DNA of 52,762 nt, taken from Gammaproteobacteria bacterium (GTDB lineage Bacteria > Pseudomonadota > Gammaproteobacteria > HyVt-429). A model generated the notes under the pieces. It was given only the letters and a program-made list of their open reading frames with translations, was not told the DNA's origin and did not search any database. Location of the stretch: NCBI GenBank assembly GCA_022340345.1, contig JAJDOE010000086.1, positions 1-52,762 on the forward strand, in the 5' to 3' direction. The position numbers were made by a program, and so were the translations under genes. This document shows positions 3,783 through 51,300 of the stretch, in pieces (the first letter of the stretch is position 1; each line of letters opens with the position of its first letter).

Positions 3783-4274
3783 ATGAACCTGTCCGAACTC
3801 CTGCAAACCCGACCGGAATTTTCCACCTTCAGCCAGCGGGAACTCGCCGCCCTGGAAAAGGCCCTGTGCGTAACCCGCCACGAATCGGGACACCAGTTCC
3901 TGAGCGAGGGCCAGCGTGGCGGGATGATGTTCCTCATTGTCGAGGGCGAGGTGCGCGTGACCCGGAAATCCCACGAGCAATCCGGCTACGAACTGAGCCG
4001 TAAGCTCGGTCCCGGCGACGTTTTCGGTCTCGTTTCCCTGATTGACCCCGGCAAGTGCACCGCGACCGTTTCAGCGGAAACCCCGGTCACCGTGGCCTCG
4101 CTTCCGCGCCAGGCCTTCGTTTTGCTGATGCACAACCATGCGCCGATCGCCACCCATTTCCAGCAACTGGTGACCGATCAGCTGGCCCGGGATCTGCACC
4201 GCCCCGCAAGCGAAATGCAGCGCCTGCTGGCCGACGGCCATACCGGGGCGATCCGCGCGGCGGCGGAGGATTAA
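3783..4274 (+). CDS. stand-alone cyclic-nucleotide-binding-fold protein with degenerate pocket
   Basis: A 163-residue protein made of one CNB (cupin-like) domain (about residues 10-130) and a short helical tail, with no DNA-binding domain. The phosphate-binding cassette can be aligned (FGLVSLIDPGKCTATV, from residue 81), but the usual Glu of FGE is Leu83 and the Arg that holds the cyclic phosphate is Cys92. Canonical cAMP or cGMP binding is therefore unlikely; it may bind another ligand or act by protein contact. The start is well supported by AGGAAA just upstream of the ATG at 3783. It converges on a Crp/Fnr regulator whose pocket is intact. That the pair is functionally linked is inference. 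Confidence 0.8.
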   Translation: MNLSELLQTRPEFSTFSQRELAALEKALCVTRHESGHQFLSEGQRGGMMFLIVEGEVRVTRKSHEQSGYELSRKLGPGDVFGLVSLIDPGKCTATVSAETPVTVASLPRQAFVLLMHNHAPIATHFQQLVTDQLARDLHRPASEMQRLLADGHTGAIRAAAED

Positions 4275-4411: not shown

Positions 4412-5065
4412 TTACCAGGACGAGGGTAGCTGGCGCAGAATAAGAATGCGCTTGTCCTCGGTCTCTATATAGTCACCCGTCGACAGGTCCCGCAGGATTC
4501 GCGTCACCATTTCCCGCGAGGCGCCAACCCGGTTCGCGATGTCTTGGTGGGTCGGGCGGGGCTCGATCACCAGCCTGCCGTCCTGTTCCTCTCCCAGCTC
4601 AAGCAAGGTCCTCCGCACACGACCGTAGACGTCCAGTAGCGCCAGGGTCCTGACACTCTCGCTCAGGTCCCGGATACGACGGGCCATGGCCCGCATCAGG
4701 CGCATACTGGCCAAGGGTTGGGAGGCAATGAAGGTGTTGAAGTCTGCGCGGGAAACTTCATGCAGCACCGCGGGTCCGGTCGTTACTATAGATGCGGACC
4801 GCGGCGCGTCATCGAGCAACGAAAGCTCCCCGAAACAGTCGCCGGGGCCCAGCGTGTTCAGGATGACTTCCTTGCCCTCGGGGGAGGTCAGGAACACCCG
4901 AACCTGGCCGCTGGCGATTATGAAAAAGGACGTGGTCTGGTCCCCTTCGCTGATGATGACCGTGTTCTTCCGGAACGAGCGGGAGACGCCGCGTTGCGAG
5001 AGCGCCTCCATCTCGTCCGCGGTCAGGTCGGAAAACAGCGGGACATTCTGGAAATCGACAGACAT
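4412..5065 (-). CDS. Crp/Fnr-family transcriptional regulator
   Basis: A 217-residue regulator with an N-terminal CNB domain (about 10-120) and a C-terminal winged helix-turn-helix (about 172-210; THQDIANRVGASREMVTRIL). The phosphate-binding cassette is complete: F78-G79-E80 and R89-S90 in FGELSLLDDAPRSASI, so cAMP-type binding is plausible. There is no N-terminal cysteine cluster, which argues against an FNR-type iron-sulphur sensor. The frame is open upstream to 5296, but I chose the ATG at 5065 (MSVDFQNVPLF) because Crp homology begins there and the upstream translation looks non-coding. It is divergent from the transporter-CNB gene at 5329, which it may regulate together with itself. Confidence 0.9.
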   Translation of the reverse strand: MSVDFQNVPLFSDLTADEMEALSQRGVSRSFRKNTVIISEGDQTTSFFIIASGQVRVFLTSPEGKEVILNTLGPGDCFGELSLLDDAPRSASIVTTGPAVLHEVSRADFNTFIASQPLASMRLMRAMARRIRDLSESVRTLALLDVYGRVRRTLLELGEEQDGRLVIEPRPTHQDIANRVGASREMVTRILRDLSTGDYIETEDKRILILRQLPSSW

Positions 5066-5196
5066 CGGGAAATAAGGCCGTGCGCGTAGCCGGGCATTAT
5101 AGGTTGTGTCGTGGGCGCGGCCCACCGGCACCGGGCCGGGTAATTCCTCACAGGCCCGACTGTCATTATTCACCACCCACGGGCACCCGAATCCTT

Positions 5197-5211
5197 TACA
5201 CTTTTTGTGTA
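5197..5211. promoter_or_regulatory. inverted repeat between divergent Crp/Fnr and transporter genes
   Basis: TACAC-ttttt-GTGTA is a perfect 5-bp inverted repeat in the 263-base divergent region. The overlapping TTTACA (5195-5200) resembles a -35 box reading toward the transporter gene, although no good -10 lies at standard spacing. A Crp/Fnr-type operator is a reasonable guess; the half-site does not match TGTGA exactly. Confidence 0.3.
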
Positions 5212-5328
5212 CCGTAAATATCGTCGCCCAGAAGGATTGCCGTGATACCGCACCGGTTTCCTGTGACAAGCGGTCGCTGCGCGTCCCCTCGGGCAAAGCC
5301 CGCCACTCCCAGTAACGGATAGCCGAGT

Positions 5329-7572
5329 ATGTCCCTGGTCGATCGCCTGAGCAGTTTTTTCCTCGTTCACGGGGCGGAGCGGCGCCAGTTTCTCTATCTG
5401 GTGGCGCTGTTCTGGGTGATCGGGGCGGGGCTTGCCGTGGGGCAGGGCGCGGCCCATGCCTTGTTTCTCAAGCGCTATGGGATCGAACACCTGCCGCTGG
5501 TTTACGTTGCCCTCAGCGCGGTATTGGCAGCCACCGGATTCGGGTACGCGGCGGTCATCGATCGTTTCCCGTCCGAGCGCCTGCTCCGGTACGGATTCCT
5601 GGTGATTGTCGTATTGGCACTCGCGAGTAACGGCCTGATGCGCTGGTCCAGTGGTCCGCTGGTGTTCGCCGGATTCTTCCTGCTCTACGAAGTCAGTTCC
5701 GAGTGGCTGCTGGCCCATAGTGGCTGGTATCTCAGCCAGAACCTGGACGTGATGCAACTCAAGCGCCTCACGCCCCTGGTATTGGCGGGCTGGCAACTCG
5801 GCATCCTTTCCGGCGGTCTGCTGCTGGCCGGTGCCGCGCCGCTGGCCGGCGTGGTCAACGTGACCCTGGTCTGGTGCTTGTTGCTGGCCGGCGCCCTCGC
5901 GCTGGTGTGGCAACGTCACCACCGGTACGGTGTCTCCCGCTATTACCGTCCACAGCGGGGCCGGGTGGACACCGGGGCGGGAAACCGTGGCGAGGGCGGG
6001 CTTCGCGCCGTCCTGAAATCTCCGTTTCTTCGCTCATCCCTGCTGGCGATGTTTTTCCTGGTGATTACCATGTACACGCTGACGTATTCCGTGAGCCGCG
6101 TGTACACCACCGCGTTCCAGGATGAAGCCGCGCTTGGCGCCTTTTTCGGCAAGTTGCTGATGCTTACCGGAGGCCTGGCGCTTTTCCTGCAGATCTTCTT
6201 TGTTAGTCGCCTGCTGCGGTGGATCGGTGCGCCCCGGGCGAACCTCGTGTTTCCGGTCGCCGGCCTGGCCAGTTTTGGCCTGCTGTTCTCCAGTTTTGCC
6301 GTGCCCGCCGCGGTGATCGGCAGCGTAGTAAAGGACGCCGTCGTTCCCGCGATCCACCGGCCCGCGCGCCAACTGATGCTGAGCGCGGTTCCTGCGAGCC
6401 TGCAGGGTCGCGCACGGGCAGCCATGCTCGTATGTGTTCCTGCCGCGCTGTGCACCACCGGCCTGTTGCTCCATTTCGGCCAGGAAGCCGGCGGACCGAG
6501 CCTGGTCCTGGGCTTTGGGGCGCTGGCCGCGACGGCCTTGCTGTTTTTTAGCTGGCAGGCGAACGCCGCCTACCCCCGCACGCTGATATCGACTCTTGAA
6601 GACCAGGTGTTTGTTCCGCAAGGCGTTATGGACGTGCCCCATGGCGATACCCTGGCCCCGGGAACGGATGCGGAAAGAGCTTCACCCGAGGAGGAAGGAG
6701 GTACCGTGGAGTCGAACCTGGAACGAGCGATCGAACTGCGCTACGCAGCTGATGTCCTTCATGCGGAACCCGATTCAACACCCCAGGTGCGGTTGCTGGC
6801 GCTGGTCCTGAATGAAAATTGGGCCGCCACGGTGGATCGCTGTCTTAGCAAACTCGCCGAGACGGAAGACAAAAACACTATCGAGACGGTCCGGGCGGCA
6901 CTGCGCAGCCGGGAGGCCCGGCACGTGGCGATGGCGACCGAAGCATTGCACAGCCTGCGGGAAACCCGCTATGCAAGGGAACTCAGCGCCCTGCTGGATC
7001 GGGTCAGTACCACCACGACCTCGTGTCCCGCAAGCGGGCTGCACTTGGCGAGCGTCGCGGATGTCGCCGCCTGGTGCCAGAAATCCGGAGACGCATGGCT
7101 GAGCGAATGCGCCCGGTGCGTGGGGCAGGAAACGATGCCGGAGTTGCTCCGGCGTATTCTGCTGCTCAAGGGAACGTCCGTGTTCCACGAGGTTGGCACC
7201 CACGAACTTCGCATGGTCGCACAGGAGCTTAAGCGGGAGCGGCTTCACGCCGGAGAACGCGTATTCGACATCAACGAGCCCAGCGACCGCTTTTACGTGA
7301 TCGACGTTGGCCGCATCGGTATCTCGACACACCCGACCCCCACCGAAAAAGTCTTCGTGGTGATATTCGGCCCGGGCGGATGTTTCGGGGAAATCGGCTG
7401 TTTCGACCACCTGCCACGCTCTGCCACGGCCCATGTTCTCGAGGATGTGACCCTGCTCGGGCTGGAGAAATCCAAGCTGCACGGGCTGGTCCTGCGCTAC
7501 CCGGAACTGAGCCTGGGATTGCTGCGTGGTATCGGTACGCGCCTGCGCGAAGTGACGCAGGCGGGGAGATGA
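5329..7572 (+). CDS. nucleotide-translocase/MFS-like transporter fused to a CNB domain
   Basis: A 747-residue fusion. Residues about 20-425 form a polytopic membrane region with roughly twelve hydrophobic segments, resembling the ATP/ADP translocase (Npt/Tlc) or MFS group. A charged soluble linker (about 425-620) has helical-repeat character. The C-terminal CNB domain (about 625-745) has an intact cassette, with F686-G687-E688 and R697-S698 in FGEIGCFDHLPRSATA. This suggests a transporter whose activity responds to a cyclic nucleotide; the substrate is unknown. The ATG at 5329 (MSLVDRL) matches the start of the first hydrophobic region. Its stop overlaps the next start (ATGA), so it is probably translationally coupled to the exported protein that follows. 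The fusion is visible directly; gating is inference. Confidence 0.8.
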   Translation: MSLVDRLSSFFLVHGAERRQFLYLVALFWVIGAGLAVGQGAAHALFLKRYGIEHLPLVYVALSAVLAATGFGYAAVIDRFPSERLLRYGFLVIVVLALASNGLMRWSSGPLVFAGFFLLYEVSSEWLLAHSGWYLSQNLDVMQLKRLTPLVLAGWQLGILSGGLLLAGAAPLAGVVNVTLVWCLLLAGALALVWQRHHRYGVSRYYRPQRGRVDTGAGNRGEGGLRAVLKSPFLRSSLLAMFFLVITMYTLTYSVSRVYTTAFQDEAALGAFFGKLLMLTGGLALFLQIFFVSRLLRWIGAPRANLVFPVAGLASFGLLFSSFAVPAAVIGSVVKDAVVPAIHRPARQLMLSAVPASLQGRARAAMLVCVPAALCTTGLLLHFGQEAGGPSLVLGFGALAATALLFFSWQANAAYPRTLISTLEDQVFVPQGVMDVPHGDTLAPGTDAERASPEEEGGTVESNLERAIELRYAADVLHAEPDSTPQVRLLALVLNENWAATVDRCLSKLAETEDKNTIETVRAALRSREARHVAMATEALHSLRETRYARELSALLDRVSTTTTSCPASGLHLASVADVAAWCQKSGDAWLSECARCVGQETMPELLRRILLLKGTSVFHEVGTHELRMVAQELKRERLHAGERVFDINEPSDRFYVIDVGRIGISTHPTPTEKVFVVIFGPGGCFGEIGCFDHLPRSATAHVLEDVTLLGLEKSKLHGLVLRYPELSLGLLRGIGTRLREVTQAGR

Positions 7573-14748: not shown

Positions 14749-17433
14749 ATGCCCCCTGTGAAGATTGGCGAGACCCTCAATCACTACCAAATCACCGGCA
14801 AGCTCGGAGCCGGAGGTATGGGCGAGGTGTTCGCCGCGCGGGACAGCCAACTGGATCGCGAGGTGGCGATCAAGATCCTGCCACCGGAGCTGGCCGCGGA
14901 CGAGACCCGCCGCGCGCGCTTCGAACGCGAGGCAAAGGCGATCGCGGCCCTCAGCCACCCCAACATCGTCACCATCTATTCCATCGAGCGCGACGGTGAT
15001 ACCAGCTTCCTAACCATGGAGCTGGTGCACGGCCAGATGCTTTCGGAGGCGATACCCGCGCGGGGTTTCCCGCTGAGCAAGTTCTTCGAGTACTCGGTGC
15101 CCCTGGCGGATGCGATCAGCACCGCGCATCGCCAGGGCATCCTGCACCGGGACCTGAAACCCGACAACGTCATGATTACCCCGGAGGGACGCCTCAAGGT
15201 CCTCGATTTTGGCCTGGCAAAACTGGTGGGTCCGGCAGAGGAGGTCAGCGAAAGCGAGGCGCCCACCTTGACGCACCTTACGGAGGAGGGCGTAGTGATG
15301 GGCACGGTGGCCTACATGTCACCGGAGGCCATCGAGGGAAAGGCGGTGGACCACCGCTCGGACATCTTTTCCCTGGGCATCGTGCTGTACGAAATGGCCA
15401 CCGCAAACCGGCCGTTCAAGGGCGACACCCGCGCCTCGCTGATGACTTCCATTTTGCGCGACGAGCCGGTACCGGCGCCGAAGGTCAATCCGGACCTGCC
15501 CCGGGACCTGGGGCGGATAATCAAATTGTGCCTGACCAAGGACCCGGAGTACCGGTTCCAGAGCGCCCAGGACATCCGCACCGAACTGGGCGAGATGCGC
15601 CGCGAGTGGGAAAGTGGCGAGATCCGGCCAACAGGTGTGCTGGCCAGTGCAGGCGCGGCGACCGGAAAAGAAAAACTCTTCCGCTACGGGACGCTGGGTA
15701 CCGCGCTGGCGGCCGTGGTGTTTTCCGGGCTGGTCTGGCTATCCGGCCAGGACGAGGAAGAAACGCCGTCGCTGGCTACTGCGGGTGTGTTCACCCAGCT
15801 CACCGACAAGCCAGGAGCGGAATCGCTGCCGACGCTTTCCGCGGATGGCAGTACCATGGCGTTTGTGGCGCGGACCGGGCCAAAAAACCTCGATATCTTT
15901 TACCAGCACACCAGCGGCAGCAATGCCGTCAATATCACGAAAGATTCCCCGGTGGATGACACCCAGCCGGCGTTTTCGCCGGACGGAAAACGAATCGCAT
16001 TTCGTTCCGAGCGGGACGGGGGCGGCATTTTTCTCATGGGCATCCTGGGCGAATCCGTGGTGCGGCTGACAGACTTCGGTTCCCGTCCCGCGTGGTCGCC
16101 GGACGGCCAAAAGATCGCATTCGAAACCGAGAACTGGGTGTCGGTCGAGGACCGCAACAACACCAGCGAGCTCTGGGTGGTGGACGTGAAATCGCGACAG
16201 ACCACGAGGATTTCCGAAGGCGACGTCGTCGAACCCGCCTGGTCGCCGAACGGTCATCGGATCGCCTACTGGGGCCTTCCCGCCGGGGGCGGAGGACAAC
16301 GCGACATCTGGACCATCCCCGCCGGCGGCGGCCCACCGGTGGCGGTAACCCGGGGCGGCAACTTCGACTGGAATCCACGCTGGTCGCCGGACGGGCGCTA
16401 CCTGTATTTCGCCAGTGACCGGGGCGGCAGTGGCAATATCTGGCGGGTACGAATCGATGAGACCAGCGGCAAGGTGCAGGGCTCACCTCAGCCGGTAACC
16501 CGCGGTGTCGGCGCCCAGAGCCACTCCCCGACCCTTTCGAAAGATGAAAAGCGGCTGGTATACGTCTCCGAAAGCCGCAGGAATAAACTGTTCTCGGTGG
16601 CCTTCGATCCGGCTGCCTGGCGCGTAGTCGGAAATCCGGAATGGATTCTGCGTAGTGCCAGTTTCGGCCAGGGGCGGGCGTTCTCCCCGGACGGGGAGTG
16701 GCTTGTGTATTCCGCCTTCCGCGGACAGGAGGATTTGTTTATCAGCCGCCCGGATGGCAGTGGCCGACGTCGGCTCACCAACGATGCCGCCAAGGACCGG
16801 GGGCCGGTGTGGTCCCGGGACGGCAAGCAAATCTGGTTCTACTCGGATCGCAACGGCAGTTACGAAATCTGGAGCGTGCGGCCGGACGGGACCGGCCTGA
16901 CGCAGATCACCGACACACCCGGGGAATTTGCTACCGGCCCACGTTTCTCGCCGGACGGAAAGAAAGCGATTTACGCCTTGTCGAAGGGCACGGAAGTGCG
17001 CTACGAGAGTTTAGAACTCGAACGGCCGCTCCGCGGACAGCAAGCCGGAAAGCTGAAAATTGAAACGGAGGGGAAACTGCAGTTTAACGGTATGGATTTC
17101 TCTCCCGACGGCCGGCGCCTGATCGGGACCCTCGGGGATAACAGCAAACCCCGCGGCCTGGCGATCTTCGACCTGGAAGCCCAAAAGCTGGGGCCTCTGA
17201 TGGACTTCGGTGGCGGAGCGGTAGGTGGAGCCGTATTTGTGAACGACCGGTTTGCCCTGGTCGCTCACGAAGAGCGGCTCTACCGGTTGGACACACAAAC
17301 CGGGACGCACGAAGTCATCTTCACGGCGGAGGCGCCGATTGACAGCCTGGCGTTGTCCCCGGACAAGCGGATTCTCAGCTTTACCCAGCTCTCCACGGAG
17401 GCTGATATCTGGATGCTGAGCCGGGACGATTAG
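14749..17433 (+). CDS. membrane Ser/Thr protein kinase with PD40 beta-propeller
   Basis: An 894-residue receptor-like kinase. The catalytic domain (about 10-285) has GAGGMGEVF, the ATP-binding Lys42 (VAIK), the catalytic loop HRDLKPDN (Asp135) and DFG (Asp153), all intact. One transmembrane helix follows (about 315-333). The remainder (about 345-890) is a WD40-like PD40/TolB propeller with repeated FSPDG or WSPDG motifs. The kinase is cytoplasmic and the propeller should be periplasmic, probably the sensing part. The ATG at 14749 gives the usual short lead into the glycine loop. A 95-base near-copy of its middle lies at 10805-10899. It appears monocistronic; ligand and substrates are unknown. 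Confidence 0.92.
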   Translation: MPPVKIGETLNHYQITGKLGAGGMGEVFAARDSQLDREVAIKILPPELAADETRRARFEREAKAIAALSHPNIVTIYSIERDGDTSFLTMELVHGQMLSEAIPARGFPLSKFFEYSVPLADAISTAHRQGILHRDLKPDNVMITPEGRLKVLDFGLAKLVGPAEEVSESEAPTLTHLTEEGVVMGTVAYMSPEAIEGKAVDHRSDIFSLGIVLYEMATANRPFKGDTRASLMTSILRDEPVPAPKVNPDLPRDLGRIIKLCLTKDPEYRFQSAQDIRTELGEMRREWESGEIRPTGVLASAGAATGKEKLFRYGTLGTALAAVVFSGLVWLSGQDEEETPSLATAGVFTQLTDKPGAESLPTLSADGSTMAFVARTGPKNLDIFYQHTSGSNAVNITKDSPVDDTQPAFSPDGKRIAFRSERDGGGIFLMGILGESVVRLTDFGSRPAWSPDGQKIAFETENWVSVEDRNNTSELWVVDVKSRQTTRISEGDVVEPAWSPNGHRIAYWGLPAGGGGQRDIWTIPAGGGPPVAVTRGGNFDWNPRWSPDGRYLYFASDRGGSGNIWRVRIDETSGKVQGSPQPVTRGVGAQSHSPTLSKDEKRLVYVSESRRNKLFSVAFDPAAWRVVGNPEWILRSASFGQGRAFSPDGEWLVYSAFRGQEDLFISRPDGSGRRRLTNDAAKDRGPVWSRDGKQIWFYSDRNGSYEIWSVRPDGTGLTQITDTPGEFATGPRFSPDGKKAIYALSKGTEVRYESLELERPLRGQQAGKLKIETEGKLQFNGMDFSPDGRRLIGTLGDNSKPRGLAIFDLEAQKLGPLMDFGGGAVGGAVFVNDRFALVAHEERLYRLDTQTGTHEVIFTAEAPIDSLALSPDKRILSFTQLSTEADIWMLSRDD

Positions 17434-36010: not shown

Positions 36011-38350
36011 CTAACAGCCACTGGCTGCGGCCCGGTGGATGTCCGCATGCATTTGTTGCAACAACGCAGCAACCGGAGGGTCTGATTTCGCGCTGGCCCA
36101 GCGCGGATCCTGTTCCAGCCACCCGGGGCTGCGCCAGCCCTGGGCCACTGCCCGGCCCAGCCATTCAAGGGCCAGGCGGTGATCGCCGGTCTGGAGGTAG
36201 AGCGCCGCCCGTTGCAGGGTCAGCAACGGGTCATCCGCGCCGTGGTCACTGACCCAGTCCCAGGCCGCCAGTGCGCGGTCCAAAGTAATCGTGCCCATGG
36301 CGTCATCGCCACTGCTGGCATACACGTGGGCAAGCAGGCTGAGCAGACCGACTTCGAGGTAAGCGAGGTCGCTATACTGGTGCGCCGGCTCAAAGGCCCG
36401 CTCCAGGTGCCCGATGGCCTGGTCGTGGATTCCATTGAGCATCGATGCCAGCCCCGTCCACAGGACCGCCTCGCGCTGGCGCTGGCTCAGCGGTCCTTGT
36501 TCGGGAATCGCCGACTCCGCCAGCCATTCGCGCGTGGTTTCGAGCATCCGTTCGTGGGCGCCTGCCAGGAAATGGGTCTCCGCGGCGATCTCAGCGATCA
36601 TTGTGCTGCGTGGCACCAGTGCTCTCGCGCTGGCGATTGCCTGGTCCGCGGCGTCGAAAAGACAGACGCCTGTGCAGGCGATGGCTCGCGCGCCGTAACA
36701 CCGCACCCGGCTGGACGCTTCCGCATCCGCGTCCAGGGCCTGTTGGCCCCAGCGGCAGGCCTCTTCGAGGCGGCCGTACAGGACATGTCCCTCGGCGAGA
36801 ATCCAGTAGGCGCGGCTGTCATGGGGATCGTGTTCCAGTACCTGCGAAACAACCTCGGTGGCTTCATCCAGGTTGTTGGTGCGCAGCAGAACAAGGGCGA
36901 TATTGCGCAGGTTGGCGGTATTCAGGGGATCCAGCTCGCGCACCACGCGGAATTCTTCGAGGCCCTCTGTTAGCAGGCCGCGGCTGACCAGGACGTTGCC
37001 CAGCCACATGTGGGCCAGGGAAAAATTGGGATTGAGCGCGACGGCCCGATGCAGGCTCTTCGCCGCGTCCGGCAGTTTGCCCTGGAACCAGCGCAATACT
37101 CCATCGGCGGCGTGGGTCTCCGGCAGCTCCGGGGCCAGTTGCATTGCCTTCCGCCTCGACTCGACGGTCTGGTGCAGCGCTTCGGAGATCGGCATCTCGC
37201 TGTACTCGGTGGCCAGGGCAAAGGCCGTGGTGATACCGGTCCAGGCCAGCCCATAGTCCGGGTCCAGTTGAACCGCCTGCCGGAAGCGGTCGATGGCGAT
37301 CGCCAGGTCTTCAGGTGTGCGCCGGTACATGTGGTCGCGACCAAGCAGGTACAGATCGAAGGCCCGCAGGTTGCGTGTGTCCGATTGGCCCCGAACCGCG
37401 GGCAGGGTCATACGCAACGCATGGGTAATGGCGCCGGCGATTTCCTCCTGGATTGCGAAAACGTCATCCAGCTCCCGATCGTAGCGGCCGGACCACACCG
37501 GGTAGCCATCGGCGGCATCAATGAGTTGGGCTGTGATGCGCAGTCGCCGCCCGGCTTTGCGAACGCTGCCCTCAAGCAGTCGCTGTACCTTCAGGCGCGC
37601 GCTGATCGTGGCGATGTCTTCTCCCGAGTTTTTGAAGGAAAACGCCGAAGTACGCGCCGCAACCCGCAGGCCCGGGACCCGGGACAGGGAGTTGATCAAT
37701 TCCTCGGACATGCCGTCGCTGAAGTACTCGTCCGCCGGGTCGGCGCTGATATTGGTGAATGGCAGGACTGCGATGGACAGGGCTTCTTCCCTGGTGTCGG
37801 GAGCGTCGCTTGCGACGCCCCCGTTGGCGCCAATGCGAAACACCGTCACCGCTTCATCGATGTTCTTAAGTTGTTGCGGACCCAGATTGGTCAGGGAAAA
37901 CTCCAGGTGATGACGTACCTGGCGCGCCACGTCCTCGGAGAGGCAGATCTCACCGGCTCCCGCCAGGGGTTCGATCCGCGCTGCGATATTAACGCCGTCG
38001 CCGAGCAAGTCGCCGTCGCGGTACTCCACGTCACCCAGGTGGATTCCGATGCGAAGGCGGATGACTTCGGTGGCGGATTGTTCTGCGTTGCGCTGGCGGA
38101 TGGTTTCCTGGATCGCCAGGCCGGCACGTACCGCGCCCAGGGCATTGGGGAACTCCAGCATAAAGCCATCCCCCAGGGTCTTCACTTCGCGACCCCCGTG
38201 GGCGGTGAATACCGAACGCAGCAGGCGTCGGTGTTCCTCCAGCAGACGCAAGGCCAGGGCCTCGTCGCGCCGCGTCAGGGCACTGAAACCCACCAGGTCG
38301 GTGAACATGACCGCCGCAAGACGGCGCTGGCTGGATGGAGGATCGCTCAT
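36011..38350 (-). CDS. class III adenylyl cyclase with FlgO-like and TPR domains
   Basis: A 779-residue protein. The cyclase domain (about 10-180) has a full catalytic set: metal Asp18 (FTDLVGFS) and Asp61 (LGDGFM), adenine-selecting Lys57 and Asp114 (DLLG), and transition-state Asn121 and Arg125 (VNIAAR). It should make cyclic AMP. An FlgO-like domain follows (about 190-310, SIAVLPFTNISADPADEYF), then TPR-type repeats to the end. Unlike its paralogue at 1042-3039, no clear transmembrane helix separates the parts, so it appears cytosolic. The ATG at 38350 is used. The glycosyltransferase gene begins seven bases downstream. It is divergent from the RND pump pair. Confidence 0.9.
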   Translation of the reverse strand: MSDPPSSQRRLAAVMFTDLVGFSALTRRDEALALRLLEEHRRLLRSVFTAHGGREVKTLGDGFMLEFPNALGAVRAGLAIQETIRQRNAEQSATEVIRLRIGIHLGDVEYRDGDLLGDGVNIAARIEPLAGAGEICLSEDVARQVRHHLEFSLTNLGPQQLKNIDEAVTVFRIGANGGVASDAPDTREEALSIAVLPFTNISADPADEYFSDGMSEELINSLSRVPGLRVAARTSAFSFKNSGEDIATISARLKVQRLLEGSVRKAGRRLRITAQLIDAADGYPVWSGRYDRELDDVFAIQEEIAGAITHALRMTLPAVRGQSDTRNLRAFDLYLLGRDHMYRRTPEDLAIAIDRFRQAVQLDPDYGLAWTGITTAFALATEYSEMPISEALHQTVESRRKAMQLAPELPETHAADGVLRWFQGKLPDAAKSLHRAVALNPNFSLAHMWLGNVLVSRGLLTEGLEEFRVVRELDPLNTANLRNIALVLLRTNNLDEATEVVSQVLEHDPHDSRAYWILAEGHVLYGRLEEACRWGQQALDADAEASSRVRCYGARAIACTGVCLFDAADQAIASARALVPRSTMIAEIAAETHFLAGAHERMLETTREWLAESAIPEQGPLSQRQREAVLWTGLASMLNGIHDQAIGHLERAFEPAHQYSDLAYLEVGLLSLLAHVYASSGDDAMGTITLDRALAAWDWVSDHGADDPLLTLQRAALYLQTGDHRLALEWLGRAVAQGWRSPGWLEQDPRWASAKSDPPVAALLQQMHADIHRAAASGC

Positions 38351-38473: not shown

Positions 38474-39508
38474 ATGATTTTCATCCGCAAACCCCTGGCC
38501 GTCCTGCCCTTTGTACTGTTCGCCACGCCGCTCGCCGCGGAGCCGCTGGCCACCGCGCCGGTGGAGTACCGCAGCCTGGCCAGCGAGGAGCTTTTCGACG
38601 GCACCGTCGAGGCGGTCAACCAGTCCACCGTTGCTGCTCAGACCAGCGGTCGTGTGCTGGAGGTGCTATTCGACGTGGACGATTACGTGGCCCGCGGGAC
38701 GGTCGTCGTCCGGTTGCGGGACACGGAACAGCAGGCGCGTCTGGCGCGGGCGGAAGGCCTGGCAACAGAGGCAGGGGCCCGCCTGGAGGAGGCCGCCGAC
38801 GCCCAGCGCCGCCACCAGGAGCTGTATGCGCAAAAAGTCGCCAGCAAGGCGGCCCTGGATCGCGCGGTCGCCAATTTCAAGGCCGCGCGCGCGGCGCTGG
38901 AAGCCGCCCGTGCCCAGGTGGACGAGGCCCGGGAGCAACTCGAACATACCATGGTGCGCGCTCCCTACAGCGGCATCGTGGTGGAACGCGGCGTGCAACC
39001 CGGCGAAACAGTACAGCCGGGTTCTGCGCTGATGACCGGGTTGTCGCTGGAATCACTGCGCGTGAACGCCTACGTACCGCAACGGCTGGTGGCGCCCCTG
39101 CGCGCGGGCGGGACCGCGCGGGTGTTGCTGGAAGATGGTGCGCAGCCCATCGAGGTCCGGGACCTGACGGTTTCTCCGCGTGCGGACCTGGCGACCCGCA
39201 GTTTCCGCGTCCGGGTTGCGCTGCCGGAGGGCACGCACGGGCTTTTCCCGGGCATGGCTGTGAAGCTGGCCGTCGCCACCGGCGAGGCGCAGCGTCTCCT
39301 GGTTCCGGAACGTTCCGTGGTGCACCGCAGCGAAGTTACCGGGGTGTACGTGCTGGTCGGCGATCGAGTGGTGTTTCGCCAGGTGCGGGTCGGCCGGCGG
39401 CATGGCGATTCGCGGGAAGTGCTCGCCGGTCTGCACGAGGGTGAGCAGGTAGCCCTGGACCCGGTACAGGCCACCATTTTCCTGAAGGCCGGCAACCCGG
39501 GAAACTGA
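38474..39508 (+). CDS. RND efflux periplasmic adaptor (membrane fusion protein)
   Basis: A 344-residue HlyD/AcrA-type adaptor. A signal peptide (MIFIRKPLAVLPFVLFATPLA) precedes the barrel-sandwich half QTSGRVLEVLFDVDDYVARGTVVVRL split as usual, a coiled-coil hairpin (about 90-155), the second lipoyl half (VRAPYSGIVVERGVQPGETV) and the beta-barrel domain (VNAYVPQRLVAPLRAG). There is no lipobox cysteine. It links the inner-membrane permease encoded next to an outer-membrane channel; no such channel gene is in the window. The ATG of the permease follows one base after this stop region, so they are translated together. Confidence 0.93.
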   Translation: MIFIRKPLAVLPFVLFATPLAAEPLATAPVEYRSLASEELFDGTVEAVNQSTVAAQTSGRVLEVLFDVDDYVARGTVVVRLRDTEQQARLARAEGLATEAGARLEEAADAQRRHQELYAQKVASKAALDRAVANFKAARAALEAARAQVDEAREQLEHTMVRAPYSGIVVERGVQPGETVQPGSALMTGLSLESLRVNAYVPQRLVAPLRAGGTARVLLEDGAQPIEVRDLTVSPRADLATRSFRVRVALPEGTHGLFPGMAVKLAVATGEAQRLLVPERSVVHRSEVTGVYVLVGDRVVFRQVRVGRRHGDSREVLAGLHEGEQVALDPVQATIFLKAGNPGN

Positions 39509-39509
39509 C

Positions 39510-42500
39510 ATGAGCGAACGTCTGGGAATTTCCGGCTCCCTGGCACGCCGGTTTCTCCGCTCGGAGATTACCCCTCTGCTGGCGCTGGTGGGCGTATTAC
39601 TCGGGGCCTTTGCCGTCGCCGTGACGCCACGGGAAGAAGAGCCGCAAATTCAGGTTACCTTCGCCAATGTCTTCATTCCCTTTCCCGGTGCAAGTCCGCG
39701 GGAAGTTGAGGAACTGGTAACCGCCTCTGCGGAGCAGGTGCTCTCCGAGCTCGAAGGCGTAAAGCACATTTATTCCATTTCCCGTCGCGACATGGCGACC
39801 CTGTCCGTCGAGTTTGAAGTAGGCGAGAACCGCACCGAGGCCATCGTGCGCCTCTACAATGCGATCTACTCCAATAGCGACTGGCTGCCCGCCAACGCGG
39901 GAATCGGCCAGCCCGTAATCAAACCCCGCGGCATCGATGACGTTCCCATCGTAACCCTAACGCTGTGGACGGAAGATGAAAGTCGCGGTGGTCACGATCT
40001 GAAAAAGGTCGCGCACGCGCTGGAAGCGGAACTTAAGCGGGTACCGGGCACGCGGGATATCGAGACCATTGGTGGCCCGGACACGGTCGTGCGGGTGTTG
40101 CTGGACCCGCAGCGGCTGGCGGCCCACGGGCTGGAGGTGGCCGATCTGCGTCGCACCCTGGAAGGCGCCAACGTGGCGGCACAGGCCGGCTCGCTGGTTT
40201 CCGAAAACGGCGAGATCGCGGTGCAGGCGGGCGACTTCCTGAGCGAGCCGCAGGAAATCGGCGACCTGGTGGTCGCCGCCCACCAGGGTCGGCCGGTAAG
40301 CCTGCGTGACGTAGCAGAGATTCGCTTTGGCGCGGCGCCACCGCGCCAGTACGTGTGGATGGGCACCGGGCCGGCGGCGGACGACAAGCAGATCGGTGTC
40401 CGTGGCGAGTTTCCGGCCGTCACCCTGGCGGTGGCAAAAAAACCGGGTACCAACGCGGTGGAGATCGCCGAGCAGGTAATCGCACGTTTCGAGGCGCTCA
40501 AGGGTACGTTTGTTCCGCAGGGGATTCAGGCGACGGTAACCCGCAATTACGGTGAGACCGCGGACCAGAAGGCCCGCAAGCTGATCACCAAGCTGGTTTT
40601 CGCCACCTTGTCGGTGGTGCTGCTGGTTCTGTTTACGCTCGGCTGGCGGGAAGCCCTGGTGGTGGGCATCGCCGTTACCGTGACCCTGGCGATTACACTT
40701 TTCGCTTCCTGGGCATGGGGCTTCACTCTCAACCGGGTATCGCTGTTCGCCCTGATCTTTTCCATTGGCATCCTGGTGGACGACGCCATCGTGATCGTAG
40801 AGAACATCCACCGCCATATGCAGATGGGGAAACAGAGCTTCCTGGAAGCGATTCCGGTGGCGGTGGACGAGGTTGGCGGGCCTACGATTCTCGCCACCTT
40901 TACCGTCATCGCCGCGTTGTTGCCGATGGCGTTCGTAACCGGGCTGATGGGTCCCTACATGAGCCCTATTCCCATCAATGCCAGCATGGGCATGCTGATT
41001 TCCCTGCTGGTGGCGCTCATCGTTACACCGTGGCTTGCGTATCGCCTGCTGCACCGCGGTAGTCATTCCAGTTCGCCCGGCCGCGTCGACGACCGCCTGC
41101 GTGGGGTCTTCGAAAAACTGATGCGACCGTTCCTGCGCGGCAGCGACGGACGTCGCGCCCGCTGGTTGCTGGCCGGTGGCCTCGCCGTGCTGATCGTAAT
41201 TTCCGTGGGACTGGTGGCGGGCAAACTGGTGGTCCTGAAGATGCTGCCATTCGACAACAAATCCGAGTTCCAGGTCGTGGTGGACTTGCCGGAGGGTACC
41301 AGCCTGGAGGAGACCGCGCGGGTGCTGGCGGATCTGGGCCGCCAACTGGCGGAGGTGCCGGAAGTCACCGACTATGAGGTGTACGCGGGCACCGCCTCGC
41401 CAATCAACTTCAATGGCCTGGTGCGCCAGTACCATCTGCGCAGCGGATCGCACCTGGGCGACATTCAGGTCAACCTGGCCGACAAGCATCGGCGGCAGCG
41501 CAGCAGTCACGAGATTGCACGCTCGGTGCGGGCGCCCTTGCAGCAGATCGCCCGGCGTTTCGGCGCCAACGTCAAGATTGTGGAGGTGCCACCAGGTCCG
41601 CCGGTGTTCGCTCCGCTGGTGGCGGAAATCTACGGGCTGGACTATGCAGGACAGATCGGAGTTGCCCAAAAAGTTCGCGAAGTATTTTCCAGCACCGCGG
41701 ATATCGTCGACGTGGATGACAGTATCGAAGCCGCCGCGCCCCGCTGGATCGTGCGGGTAGACCGGCGCAAGGCGGCGCTGCACGGCATCAGCCAGCAGGC
41801 GGTGGTTTCCACCCTGACCGCCGCGCTTGCCGGAGACGACGTGGGCTATCTGCATCGTGACAATGCCAAATACGCGGTGCCGATCCGGCTGCAGCTACCG
41901 CTCGCGGCGCAGGCGGACCTGCGCCAGGCACTGGCCCTGAAAGTGCGGGCCGCGGACGGCTCGCTGGTGGCGATCTCCGAATTTGCCGATCTGGAAAAGA
42001 CGACGATTGAACACTCTATCTATCACAAGGACTTGTTGCCGGTGGTGTTCGTCACCGGAGACATGGCGGGCGAACTGGACAGCCCCCTGTACGGCATGGG
42101 GTCCATTTCCGCGCGCCTGGATGAGGCGGGCGTCGCCGGGGCGGCGGGTATCGAGCAGTACTGGATCGAGCCACCGGGGAACCCCTACCAATACGGCCTG
42201 AAATGGGATGGCGAGTGGCAGATCACGTACGAAACCTTCCGCGACATGGGCATCGCCTACTCGGTGGGGCTGATCCTCATCTACCTGCTGGTGGTGGGCC
42301 AGTTCCGGTCCTACCTGGTGCCGCTGATCATCATGATTCCCATCCCGCTGACCGTCATCGGTGTGATGCCGGGCCACGCCTTGCTGGGGGCCACGTTCAC
42401 GGCCACTTCCATGATTGGCATGATCGCGCTGGCGGGGATCATCGTGCGCAACTCGATCCTGCTGGTGGATTTCATCAACGATGAACTGCGCCAGGGAACA

Positions 42501-42740
42501 CCCTTTGACGAGGCGGTACTGCGCTCTGGTGTCGCTCGCACCAAGCCGATACTGCTGACCGCGCTGGCGGCGATCCTTGGCGCACTGTTCATCCTGGATG
42601 ACCCAATCTTCAGCGGTCTCGCCGTCGCGCTGATCTTCGGTCTGTTGGTCTCCACCCTGCTGACCCTGGTGGTCATTCCAGTGATGTACTACGCGTTCAT
42701 GGCAAAACGCGTTGCCGTGGGCGCTGACGAGAGCGCCTGA
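39510..42740 (+). CDS. RND efflux permease (AcrB-type)
   Basis: A 1076-residue proton-driven permease with the standard layout: TM1, a large periplasmic loop, TM2-6, a cytoplasmic linker, TM7, a second periplasmic loop and TM8-12. The TM4 proton-relay pair is present (SIGILVDDAIVIVENIHRH), as is GPYMSPIPINASMGMLISLL. Its periplasmic sequence is not close to AcrB itself, so the substrate (drug, lipid or other hydrophobic compound) cannot be predicted. It directly follows the adaptor gene and is the second gene of a two-gene operon. No regulator of TetR or MarR type is adjacent. Confidence 0.95.
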   Translation: MSERLGISGSLARRFLRSEITPLLALVGVLLGAFAVAVTPREEEPQIQVTFANVFIPFPGASPREVEELVTASAEQVLSELEGVKHIYSISRRDMATLSVEFEVGENRTEAIVRLYNAIYSNSDWLPANAGIGQPVIKPRGIDDVPIVTLTLWTEDESRGGHDLKKVAHALEAELKRVPGTRDIETIGGPDTVVRVLLDPQRLAAHGLEVADLRRTLEGANVAAQAGSLVSENGEIAVQAGDFLSEPQEIGDLVVAAHQGRPVSLRDVAEIRFGAAPPRQYVWMGTGPAADDKQIGVRGEFPAVTLAVAKKPGTNAVEIAEQVIARFEALKGTFVPQGIQATVTRNYGETADQKARKLITKLVFATLSVVLLVLFTLGWREALVVGIAVTVTLAITLFASWAWGFTLNRVSLFALIFSIGILVDDAIVIVENIHRHMQMGKQSFLEAIPVAVDEVGGPTILATFTVIAALLPMAFVTGLMGPYMSPIPINASMGMLISLLVALIVTPWLAYRLLHRGSHSSSPGRVDDRLRGVFEKLMRPFLRGSDGRRARWLLAGGLAVLIVISVGLVAGKLVVLKMLPFDNKSEFQVVVDLPEGTSLEETARVLADLGRQLAEVPEVTDYEVYAGTASPINFNGLVRQYHLRSGSHLGDIQVNLADKHRRQRSSHEIARSVRAPLQQIARRFGANVKIVEVPPGPPVFAPLVAEIYGLDYAGQIGVAQKVREVFSSTADIVDVDDSIEAAAPRWIVRVDRRKAALHGISQQAVVSTLTAALAGDDVGYLHRDNAKYAVPIRLQLPLAAQADLRQALALKVRAADGSLVAISEFADLEKTTIEHSIYHKDLLPVVFVTGDMAGELDSPLYGMGSISARLDEAGVAGAAGIEQYWIEPPGNPYQYGLKWDGEWQITYETFRDMGIAYSVGLILIYLLVVGQFRSYLVPLIIMIPIPLTVIGVMPGHALLGATFTATSMIGMIALAGIIVRNSILLVDFINDELRQGTPFDEAVLRSGVARTKPILLTALAAILGALFILDDPIFSGLAVALIFGLLVSTLLTLVVIPVMYYAFMAKRVAVGADESA

Positions 42741-42826
42741 AAAAGGCGATTGAGCCCACCGCGGTTCGCGAATCCGGCACGAATTGCCGGTTGAACCCAT
42801 GCCCGGCCAGGCCGCATGATTCCGGG

Positions 42827-44116
42827 GTGGACCTGAGCGGCAAAAAATCTACCGGGCGCTACACCCTGAAGGAAGTGCTGGGACAGGGCAGCACCGCCAC
42901 CGTGCACCGGGCCTGGGATTCCTTCCAGGATCGCGATGTCGCCATCAAGACCCACGACGCAGCTTCCCTGGACGCGCCGGAAGGCATCGAACTGCAGCGA
43001 AAGATGTTCTTTCGCGAGGCCCAGGCCGCGGGTCGCCTGAAGCATCCGGGAATCACCGAGGTCTACGATGCGCTGCTCGACGATGAAACCTATGCGCTGG
43101 TCATGGAATACGTCGAAGGCGGCCGCACCCTGGCGGAGCATTGCCAGGTGGATAAGCTGCTGCCGGTGGAGCGGGTGGTGGAGATCATCCATTCCTGCGC
43201 CAGCGCCATGGAATTTGCGCATCGCCACGGCGTGGTGCACCGGGACATCAAGCCGTCCAATATCCTGCTTACCGGGGATGGCCAGGTAAAACTCACGGAT
43301 TTCGGCATCGCTTTCCTGCCGGAATCCGAGTCCACGGATTTCCACACCATCCTGGGTACACCCATGTACATCGCACCGGAACAGGTGCGGGACGAGGAGG
43401 TGACCGGCCAGGCGGACATCTACTCGCTGGGGGTAGTGACCTTCGAACTGCTGACCGGCCGCCGCTTGTTTAACGCCGACAACATTCCGGCGCTGATGCA
43501 CAAGGTGCTGAACGCGCCGTTGCCGAAGGCGGGGGATTTTCGCGAAGGTATCCCGGAGGTCCTGGAGCGCATTCTCGCACGCATGCTGGCGCGCGATACC
43601 AGCAAACGCTACCGGCACGCCCGAGACGTAGCCGCCGACCTGTCCCTGGTTTTCGACCTGATGAAGGCGCCGCCGACCGAGGTTCCCGACCTGGACAAGT
43701 TCCGGCTCGCGCGCAAGCTGGATTTTTTTCGCCGGTTTCCCGATGCCCAGGTCTGGGAATTTATCCACGCCAGTGTCTGGCGGCGCTTTAACGCCGGCCA
43801 ATCGATCCTGCGGGCCGGCGACATCGACCGTTCGTTGTACATCATGGCAAGCGGAGAAGCGGTAGCCAGGAAAGACGGCCGGCCGCTGAACGCCCTGGCC
43901 GCGGGAGACTGCTTTGGCGAGATCGGTTACCTCACCCGCGGCAAGCGAACCGCCGACGTGGTTGCCCAGACCGAAGTATTGTTGATCAAGGTAAAAGCCA
44001 GCATGCTGGACCGGGCCTCTCGCGACTGCCAACTGCTCTTCTATCGACGCTTCCTGCACACCACGATCGAACGCCTGGTGCGCATCAGCGACGACTACAC
44101 GATTGGAGGTGACTGA
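42827..44116 (+). CDS. Ser/Thr protein kinase fused to a C-terminal cyclic-nucleotide-binding domain
   Basis: A 429-residue soluble protein. The kinase domain (about 10-280) has GQGSTATVHRAWD, Lys41 (VAIK), HRDIKPSN (Asp140) and DFG (Asp158), all intact. The CNB domain (about 315-425) has a full cassette: F363-G364-E365 and R374-T375 in FGEIGYLTRGKRTADV. Arg-Thr at this place is the pattern of cGMP-preferring sites in eukaryotic protein kinase G, but a preference here is only a suggestion. No membrane helix is seen. Starts are uncertain: GTG at 42827 gives a normal short lead; an in-frame TTG at 42791 is possible. It converges on a two-component system. Confidence 0.88.
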   Translation: MDLSGKKSTGRYTLKEVLGQGSTATVHRAWDSFQDRDVAIKTHDAASLDAPEGIELQRKMFFREAQAAGRLKHPGITEVYDALLDDETYALVMEYVEGGRTLAEHCQVDKLLPVERVVEIIHSCASAMEFAHRHGVVHRDIKPSNILLTGDGQVKLTDFGIAFLPESESTDFHTILGTPMYIAPEQVRDEEVTGQADIYSLGVVTFELLTGRRLFNADNIPALMHKVLNAPLPKAGDFREGIPEVLERILARMLARDTSKRYRHARDVAADLSLVFDLMKAPPTEVPDLDKFRLARKLDFFRRFPDAQVWEFIHASVWRRFNAGQSILRAGDIDRSLYIMASGEAVARKDGRPLNALAAGDCFGEIGYLTRGKRTADVVAQTEVLLIKVKASMLDRASRDCQLLFYRRFLHTTIERLVRISDDYTIGGD

Positions 44117-49941: not shown

Positions 49942-51300
49942 ATGTCGCTGATCGGAACCCGGATTTCCCACTACGAGGTCGAGGAGTTGCTCGGCGAGGG
50001 TGGTATGGGCGTGGTCTATCGCGCCCGGGACACCCGCCTCAACCGGCCGGTGGCGCTCAAGGTGCTCAAGGGCGACCTGGTGGCGGACCCGGACCGCAAC
50101 AAGCGCTTTCTGCGGGAGGCCCGCGCCGCGGCGGCAGTGACCCATCCGGCGATCGCCCAGATCTATGACGTGGGCGAGGAGGACGGCCGCCTGTACATGG
50201 CCATGGAATTTATCGAAGGCAAGACCCTGCGCCGGCTGATCCGCCAGGACGAACTGGAACTCAACGCGGGGCTGGATATCGCCCTGCAGGCGGCGGATGG
50301 TCTGGCCCGCGCCCACCGTTCCGGCATCGTGCACCGCGACGTGAAGAGCGACAACATCATGGTGACCCCGGACGGACACGCCAAGGTGCTCGACTTCGGG
50401 CTCGCCAAGCTACTGGACCCGGAGGACGGTGGGGACGGCGCCAGCCAGATGGAGACCGTGACCCGCACCGAGACCGGTGTGCTGATGGGCACCATTCCCT
50501 ATATGAGCCCGGAACAGACCCGCGGTGAACATGCCAGCGCCCGCAGCGACGTGTTTGCATTCGGCATCGTGTTGTACGAGATCGTTACCGGGAAACTGCC
50601 GTTCAAGCGCAAGACCTCGGTGGACACCATGCACGCCATCGCATTCGAGCCACCGCCGCCCTACGACAGTGCGCCCCCTATCGTGGGACTCGACGCGGTA
50701 ATCCAGCGCTGCCTGCAGAAAGACCCGTCCAGGCGCTATACGGACGCCGGCGAGCTGGCTGCGGACCTGCGCCGGGCGCGGGAGGGGCAGCGACCGCTGG
50801 CGGACCATCCGGCGGATACCTTCACCGAACTGCGCACCCAGGCGACCCAGGTGGAGGCGCACCTGGTGGGCGCCTTTGGCAGTCGCACCAAGGCGCTGTT
50901 CGCGGTGGGTTTCGCGCTGGCGGTATTGTTGCTGGTGCTCGGGCAAGTGGACCTGGGGAACCTCCTGTTCCTGGGCCTGGCGGGCATGCTCGCCTATCGC
51001 TGGTTCCGCAACGAGGGGGACCGCATGATCCGGCGCTTCGCGAAGAAGGTGGGGAAGTATCGTGAGGTCAAGGCGATCACCCGCAAAGGCCGCCAGCTCA
51101 CGGTGGTGCTGGATGGCGCCAACCCCAAGTTCTACCTGCAGCTGAACCAGCTGACAGACAGCATCAACAAAAAACGCTGGCGGGCCGAGCCCATCGAGGT
51201 GGCGGTGCGGGACGACGTATCCGAGGACGAGTTGCGCGACAGCCTGCGCGGCGCGGGGGTGGTGTACCTGCGCAAGGACGTGAAGCTCACGCCCTCATAA
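49942..51300 (+). CDS. Ser/Thr protein kinase with transmembrane segments and uncharacterised C-terminal region
   Basis: A 452-residue kinase. The catalytic domain (about 8-285) has GEGGMGVVYRARD, Lys40 (VALK), HRDVKSDN (Asp133) and DFG (Asp151). Two closely spaced hydrophobic helices follow (about 313-348, LFAVGFALAVLLLVLG and LLFLGLAGMLAYRWF). The last hundred residues (about 350-452) are basic then beta-like, and I recognise no domain there. With a short hairpin of helices both ends would be cytoplasmic. GGAGAG precedes the ATG at 49942. It converges on yggX. Substrates are unknown. Confidence 0.9.
   Translation: MSLIGTRISHYEVEELLGEGGMGVVYRARDTRLNRPVALKVLKGDLVADPDRNKRFLREARAAAAVTHPAIAQIYDVGEEDGRLYMAMEFIEGKTLRRLIRQDELELNAGLDIALQAADGLARAHRSGIVHRDVKSDNIMVTPDGHAKVLDFGLAKLLDPEDGGDGASQMETVTRTETGVLMGTIPYMSPEQTRGEHASARSDVFAFGIVLYEIVTGKLPFKRKTSVDTMHAIAFEPPPPYDSAPPIVGLDAVIQRCLQKDPSRRYTDAGELAADLRRAREGQRPLADHPADTFTELRTQATQVEAHLVGAFGSRTKALFAVGFALAVLLLVLGQVDLGNLLFLGLAGMLAYRWFRNEGDRMIRRFAKKVGKYREVKAITRKGRQLTVVLDGANPKFYLQLNQLTDSINKKRWRAEPIEVAVRDDVSEDELRDSLRGAGVVYLRKDVKLTPS

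Follow-up and report, generated by a model that had tools for sequence, protein, structure and literature searches.

A PknB-type Ser/Thr kinase joined to a C-terminal cyclic nucleotide-binding domain in Gammaproteobacteria, with putative control by a cyclic mononucleotide

Background

The locus described here raises the question of whether a bacterial Ser/Thr kinase can be switched directly by a cyclic nucleotide held in its own polypeptide chain, and if so, by which one. In the textbook view of bacteria, cAMP acts mainly through transcription factors. The gene lies in a stretch of DNA of 52,762 nucleotides (the window), which is contig 50 of a 2.79 Mb draft gammaproteobacterial genome assembled in 183 contigs. 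Its product joins a kinase domain to a cyclic nucleotide-binding (CNB) domain. This architecture is already known, since Kannan et al. (PMC2246266) listed CNB domains attached to bacterial kinases in 2007, within their 'Other_bacterial' group. Such proteins resemble the present one in joining a bacterial CNB domain with a canonical cassette to a kinase; the table of that survey names the class without its kinases, a mechanism or a domain order, whereas a defined family with an alignment, a tree and a structural model is given here. A characterized bacterial kinase-CNB protein, or an experimental study of one, was not found in the open-licence literature searched, partly with narrow terms. As far as we found, the window protein is therefore a further case of a known architecture, of a kind that is uncharacterized in the literature searched.

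Domain architecture and predicted structure

The gene occupies positions 42827..44116 of the forward strand as an open reading frame of 429 amino acids with a GTG start; the other in-frame start, a TTG at 42791, would give 441 amino acids. A long frame on the opposite strand (42689-44059, -) is in our judgement a G+C-rich shadow of this gene. Pfam places a Hanks-type Ser/Thr kinase domain at residues 12-263 (42860..43615; Pkinase, E-value 5e-52, 177 bits against a cut-off of 31.7), an assignment shared by PDB sequence matching, Foldseek and residue conservation. The domain is complete, with the VAIK lysine (K41), the C-helix glutamate (E64), the HRD motif at 138-140, N145 and the DFG motif at 158-160, and its nearest solved relative is PknB both by Foldseek and by PDB sequence match (32-35% identity).

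The kinase is followed by a linker and the N-terminal helices of the CNB domain (residues 286-318, 43682..43780; helices 288-297 and 306-314 in the AlphaFold2 model and the alignment) and then by the CNB beta-roll itself, PF00027, at residues 319-396 (43781..44014; cNMP_binding, E-value 5.7e-15, 55.5 bits against a cut-off of 27.5). Within the roll, sequence and conservation identify the phosphate-binding cassette FGEIGYLTRGKRTADV at residues 363-378 (43913..43960), which carries E365, R374 and T375. A long C-terminal helix is predicted at residues 399-426 (44021..44104) from the model and from conservation, which includes Q402 and R416. The initial annotation had placed a complete kinase domain in one frame with a CNB domain, with Lys41, Asp140 and Asp158 as its catalytic residues and Arg374-Thr375 in the cassette of the C-terminal domain, and had described the domain order as the reverse of that in eukaryotic protein kinase G (PKG). 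The translation and the two Pfam matches, both well above cut-off, bear this out in full, and the cassette is canonical.

AlphaFold2, supplied with an alignment of 49 family members, models the full protein with a mean pLDDT of 90.9 and a pTM of 0.79, and the CNB domain alone with a pLDDT of 94.5. Among the 50 best Foldseek matches to the CNB domain, query TM-scores are highest for cAMP-bound GlxR (0.79-0.81), followed by HCN4 (0.77) and PfPKA-R with cAMP (0.75), with PKG entries at 0.57-0.74. When the CNB profile of the family is compared with PDB sequences, the PKG and PKA regulatory domains match best; as single domains, PfPKG CNB-D scores 74.6 bits, PfPKA-R 68.0, the human PKG domains about 67 and HCN2 about 61. 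With PKG and PKA ahead by sequence and GlxR and HCN4 ahead by fold, these comparisons leave the choice of cAMP or cGMP as the ligand undecided.

Distribution and conservation of the family

Full-length homologues share 29-47% identity, and the first of them, from related genomes, 31-47%. Matches at E <= 1e-55 occur in 99 of 369 sampled gammaproteobacterial genomes, and matches that include both domains in at least 69 of the 369, or about a fifth by our own count, which is a lower bound as the four best candidates were scored per genome. A phylum-wide sample of 299 genomes, for which the class make-up is not given, yielded just three strong matches, all from the same class and one of them from the genome under study. 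Named members come from Woeseiaceae, Azoarcus, Rhodocyclaceae, Gallionellaceae, Burkholderiales and Solimonas. None of the matches to plasmids covered 80% of the query. The circuit had been called unusual for bacteria, which is apt in that it appears unstudied but does not hold in the sense of rare, as the architecture is common in this class.

An alignment of 83 distinct fusions shows K41, E64, H138, R139, D140, K142, N145 and D158 (window protein numbering) to be invariant. The cassette glutamate (E365) is kept in 82 of the 83 and the cassette arginine (R374) in 75, the glycine of the beta2-beta3 loop (G331) is present in 80, and the residue after the arginine is threonine in 47 and serine in 13. 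Overall length is nearly constant, and the linker short, in nearly all members. The identity of the full-length homologues, the invariant catalytic residues, the near-invariant cassette Glu and Arg and the confident model together place the fusion beyond chance. The DFG motif of the kinase domain varies at its last position (column 160), where 37 of the 83 fusions have serine in place of glycine.

In a tree of the kinase domains of 46 fusions and 33 other bacterial kinases, a single branch (SH-aLRT 99) separates the fusions from the rest, from which we conclude that the kinase-CNB pairing is old and has been kept. This tree leaves out the long-branched L062 and two fusion kinases, L028 and L035, that are truncated or have no CNB domain; a first tree that contained them required three label changes, compared with one in their absence. 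The proteins thus make up a proteobacterial family defined by a kinase followed by a CNB domain, full-length homology and kinase domains on one branch.

A minority of the fusions lack the cassette arginine or the entire cassette (L023, L210, L211, L212, L213 and L050), and these are possibly ligand-independent members. The roughly 83 natural variants, with and without the arginine, offer a test set for coupling between CNB domain and kinase.

Candidate ligands of the CNB domain

We favour, with moderate confidence, the reading that the protein is a soluble one-chain Ser/Thr kinase of the PknB type in which a cyclic mononucleotide, most likely cAMP, occupies the C-terminal CNB domain and thereby controls kinase activity; the sensor is best described as CRP/HCN/PKA-like. 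The first alternative is that the domain binds a nucleoside, another small molecule, a cyclic di- or other nucleotide, or nothing at all, and serves mainly as a dimerization or scaffold module. Such departures from the canonical ligand have precedents: trypanosome PKA CNB domains answer to nucleosides and not to cAMP (PMC10959531), and CNB domains may carry other ligands such as haem (PMC2246266). Within the family, the loss of the cassette arginine in 8 of the 83 fusions is in keeping with this alternative; however, the Arg-less members are the minority, and the window protein retains Gly364, Glu365, Arg374 and Gly331, the pattern of a cyclic mononucleotide site. We consider another ligand, or none, unlikely for this protein.

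The second alternative retains the same cis-regulated kinase with cGMP as the physiological ligand, and it touches on the claim of the initial annotation that Arg374-Thr375 follows the pattern of a cGMP-preferring site. The threonine after the cassette arginine does contact the 2-NH2 of guanine in PKG (PMC3080414), and the frequency of threonine at this position in the family, the PKG chains at the top of the PDB scores for the family CNB profile and, in our alignment, the correspondence of Leu354 to PKG Leu172 on beta5 are all consistent with cGMP. The Arg-Thr pair is nevertheless a poor guide to the ligand. According to Table 1 of Kannan et al., it belongs to the consensus of PKG (PRTATV), of HCN channels (GEICLLTRGRRTASVRA) and of bacterial channel CNB domains (GPRTATV) alike (PMC2246266). 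HCN2 and HCN4 bind cAMP (1.9 and 1.5 uM) 4-7 times more tightly than cGMP (13.4 and 5.5 uM) (PMC5614581), and the HCN4 cassette, GEICLLTRGRRTASV, is near-identical to that of the window protein (aligned as GDCFGEIGYLTRGKRTADV in the window protein and GSYFGEICLLTRGRRTASV in HCN4). The isolated CNB-A domain of PKG I, which carries Arg192-Thr193, is nearly unselective, with a preference for cGMP of only about two-fold (PMC3080414). In XC_0249 of Xanthomonas, a selective bacterial cGMP receptor, the guanine contacts come from Asn145 and Glu146 of the C-helix, and the listed contacts (F73, E90, H98, N145 and E146) contain no Arg-Thr pair (PMC3770947). We accordingly rejected Arg-Thr as a cGMP signature, and the cGMP-preferring site that was read from this pair is not supported.

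Cyclases of the genome

The cyclases encoded by the genome bear on the same choice. The identity of the substrate base is read from a pair of residues in class III cyclases, for which pairing rules exist, and Glu/Cys is the pair of guanylyl cyclases. The window itself encodes a class III cyclase-TPR protein on the opposite strand (36011..38350, -), about 4.4 kb from the kinase gene, with its cyclase domain at 37844-38317 by Pfam and residue alignment; its Lys/Asp pair was confirmed in position by alignment with Ma1120 (PDB). This protein is a possible source of the ligand of the kinase-CNB protein, to which it may be functionally linked. The genome is rich in adenylyl-type cyclases: of its seven class III cyclase domains, three, including that of the window, have Lys/Asp and two Lys/Thr, so that five of the seven carry adenylyl-type pairs, while one is degenerate (L114) and one has an unusual Glu/Asp pair (L113, G000:C101:430-930). 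The glutamate of this last domain can be counted in favour of cGMP, but the canonical guanylyl Glu/Cys pair occurs in none of the seven. A match to class I adenylyl cyclase was not obtained in the genome.

Across the sampled genomes, class III cyclases are present in 52 of 58 that carry the fusion and in 25 of 40 that do not (Fisher p 0.002). We count this association in favour of cAMP, with phylogeny and genome size as confounders. Four of the 58 fusion-bearing genomes have a match neither to class III nor to class I adenylyl cyclase, which we count against cAMP. Since XC_0250 of Xanthomonas is an atypical cyclase whose product is cGMP (PMC3770947), residue rules for cyclases can mislead, and for this reason the preference for cAMP remains a leaning. 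We regard cGMP as the physiological ligand as quite improbable.

Proposed mechanism and relation to known systems

If the ligand is cAMP, it would be supplied by the class III cyclases of the cell and would enter the beta-roll, where Glu365 may hold the ribose and Arg374 the phosphate. Binding would be expected to shift the long C-helix (399-426), and this movement could be passed through the short linker, or through CRP-like dimerization, to the kinase, which would leave a restrained state and become active. Activation is the direction of cis control that we favour, and we infer it, together with cyclic-nucleotide binding, the choice of cAMP over cGMP, cis regulation and dimerization, from the features described above. 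That kinase and CNB domain are instead joined without direct allostery, the CNB domain for example merely placing the kinase with a partner, is very unlikely, for although the coupling of the domains is our inference and not a computed result, the near-constant length and short linker of nearly all members and the retention of the fusion across a large class argue against it.

The proposed cyclic-nucleotide control of the kinase in cis can be set beside several known systems. The kinase domain links the protein to the PASTA-type Hanks kinases, as both sequence and fold place it nearest to PknB among solved structures, but the PASTA part is absent and a CNB domain stands in its place. Eukaryotic PKG likewise combines kinase and CNB domains in one chain and has Arg-Thr in its cassette; it differs in carrying two to four CNB domains in N-terminal tandem ahead of an AGC kinase, whereas the window protein has a single CNB domain after a PknB-like kinase, and the likeness does not imply a shared ligand preference. 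GlxR and the HCN channels provide, among the 50 best Foldseek matches, the CNB domains most similar to the predicted structure, with a long C-helix as in the model, and HCN also the near-identical cassette, but in HCN and in CRP/GlxR the domain is attached to channels or HTH domains and not to a kinase. XC_0249 is, like the window protein in our reading, a bacterial enzyme under the control of its own CNB domain, though the enzyme is a GGDEF diguanylate cyclase.

There is, on balance, a reasonable case for a large and apparently unstudied family of bacterial one-chain kinases that evolved apart from eukaryotic PKA and PKG on a PknB-type kinase and whose Ser/Thr phosphorylation is under the direct control of cAMP (or cGMP). 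Should the family be switched by cAMP, many Gammaproteobacteria would possess a direct route from cAMP to protein phosphorylation, and an independent single-polypeptide counterpart of PKA/PKG.

Gene neighbourhood

In the window, the kinase-CNB gene is preceded on the same strand by genes for an RND adaptor and permease (38474-42740), and the genes after it, a response regulator/sensor kinase pair, are convergent with it. We rejected an RND-efflux operon as functional context, as neither of the two same-family genomes inspected shows the adaptor-permease-kinase order beside the fusion. Both of these sampled same-family genomes with the fusion (G002 and G003) carry a class III cyclase-AAA-TPR gene 3' of it on the same strand (L158:7522-12153 and L159:6035-10512), at a distance of 29 bp in G003. 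We count this adjacency in favour of the cAMP-regulated kinase and the substrate residues of these cyclases, an atypical Asp/Ala, against it. A cyclase beside the fusion is no general rule, having been detected at 2 of 67 neighbourhood loci only, by means of a custom profile whose sensitivity is limited. A neighbourhood conserved across the family was likewise rejected: the neighbours elsewhere are mostly housekeeping genes, with no general partner.

A recurrent arrangement is seen at five loci (L166, L167, L169, L173 and L174) from several genomes of different families, where a phosphoglucose isomerase gene, often accompanied by a CBS-domain gene, lies between two kinase-CNB genes that are a few kb from each other. 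The window also encodes three further CNB proteins close together, namely a stand-alone CNB protein (3783-4274, +), a CRP-type regulator with HTH and CNB domains (4412-5296, -) and a protein of 747 amino acids with a C-terminal CNB domain and a hydrophobic, membrane-like N-terminal part (5329-7572, +). Two more Hanks-type kinases are present at 14749-17433 (+) and 49942-51300 (+), of which one has PD40 beta-propeller repeats and in one the kinase domain is followed by a hydrophobic stretch.
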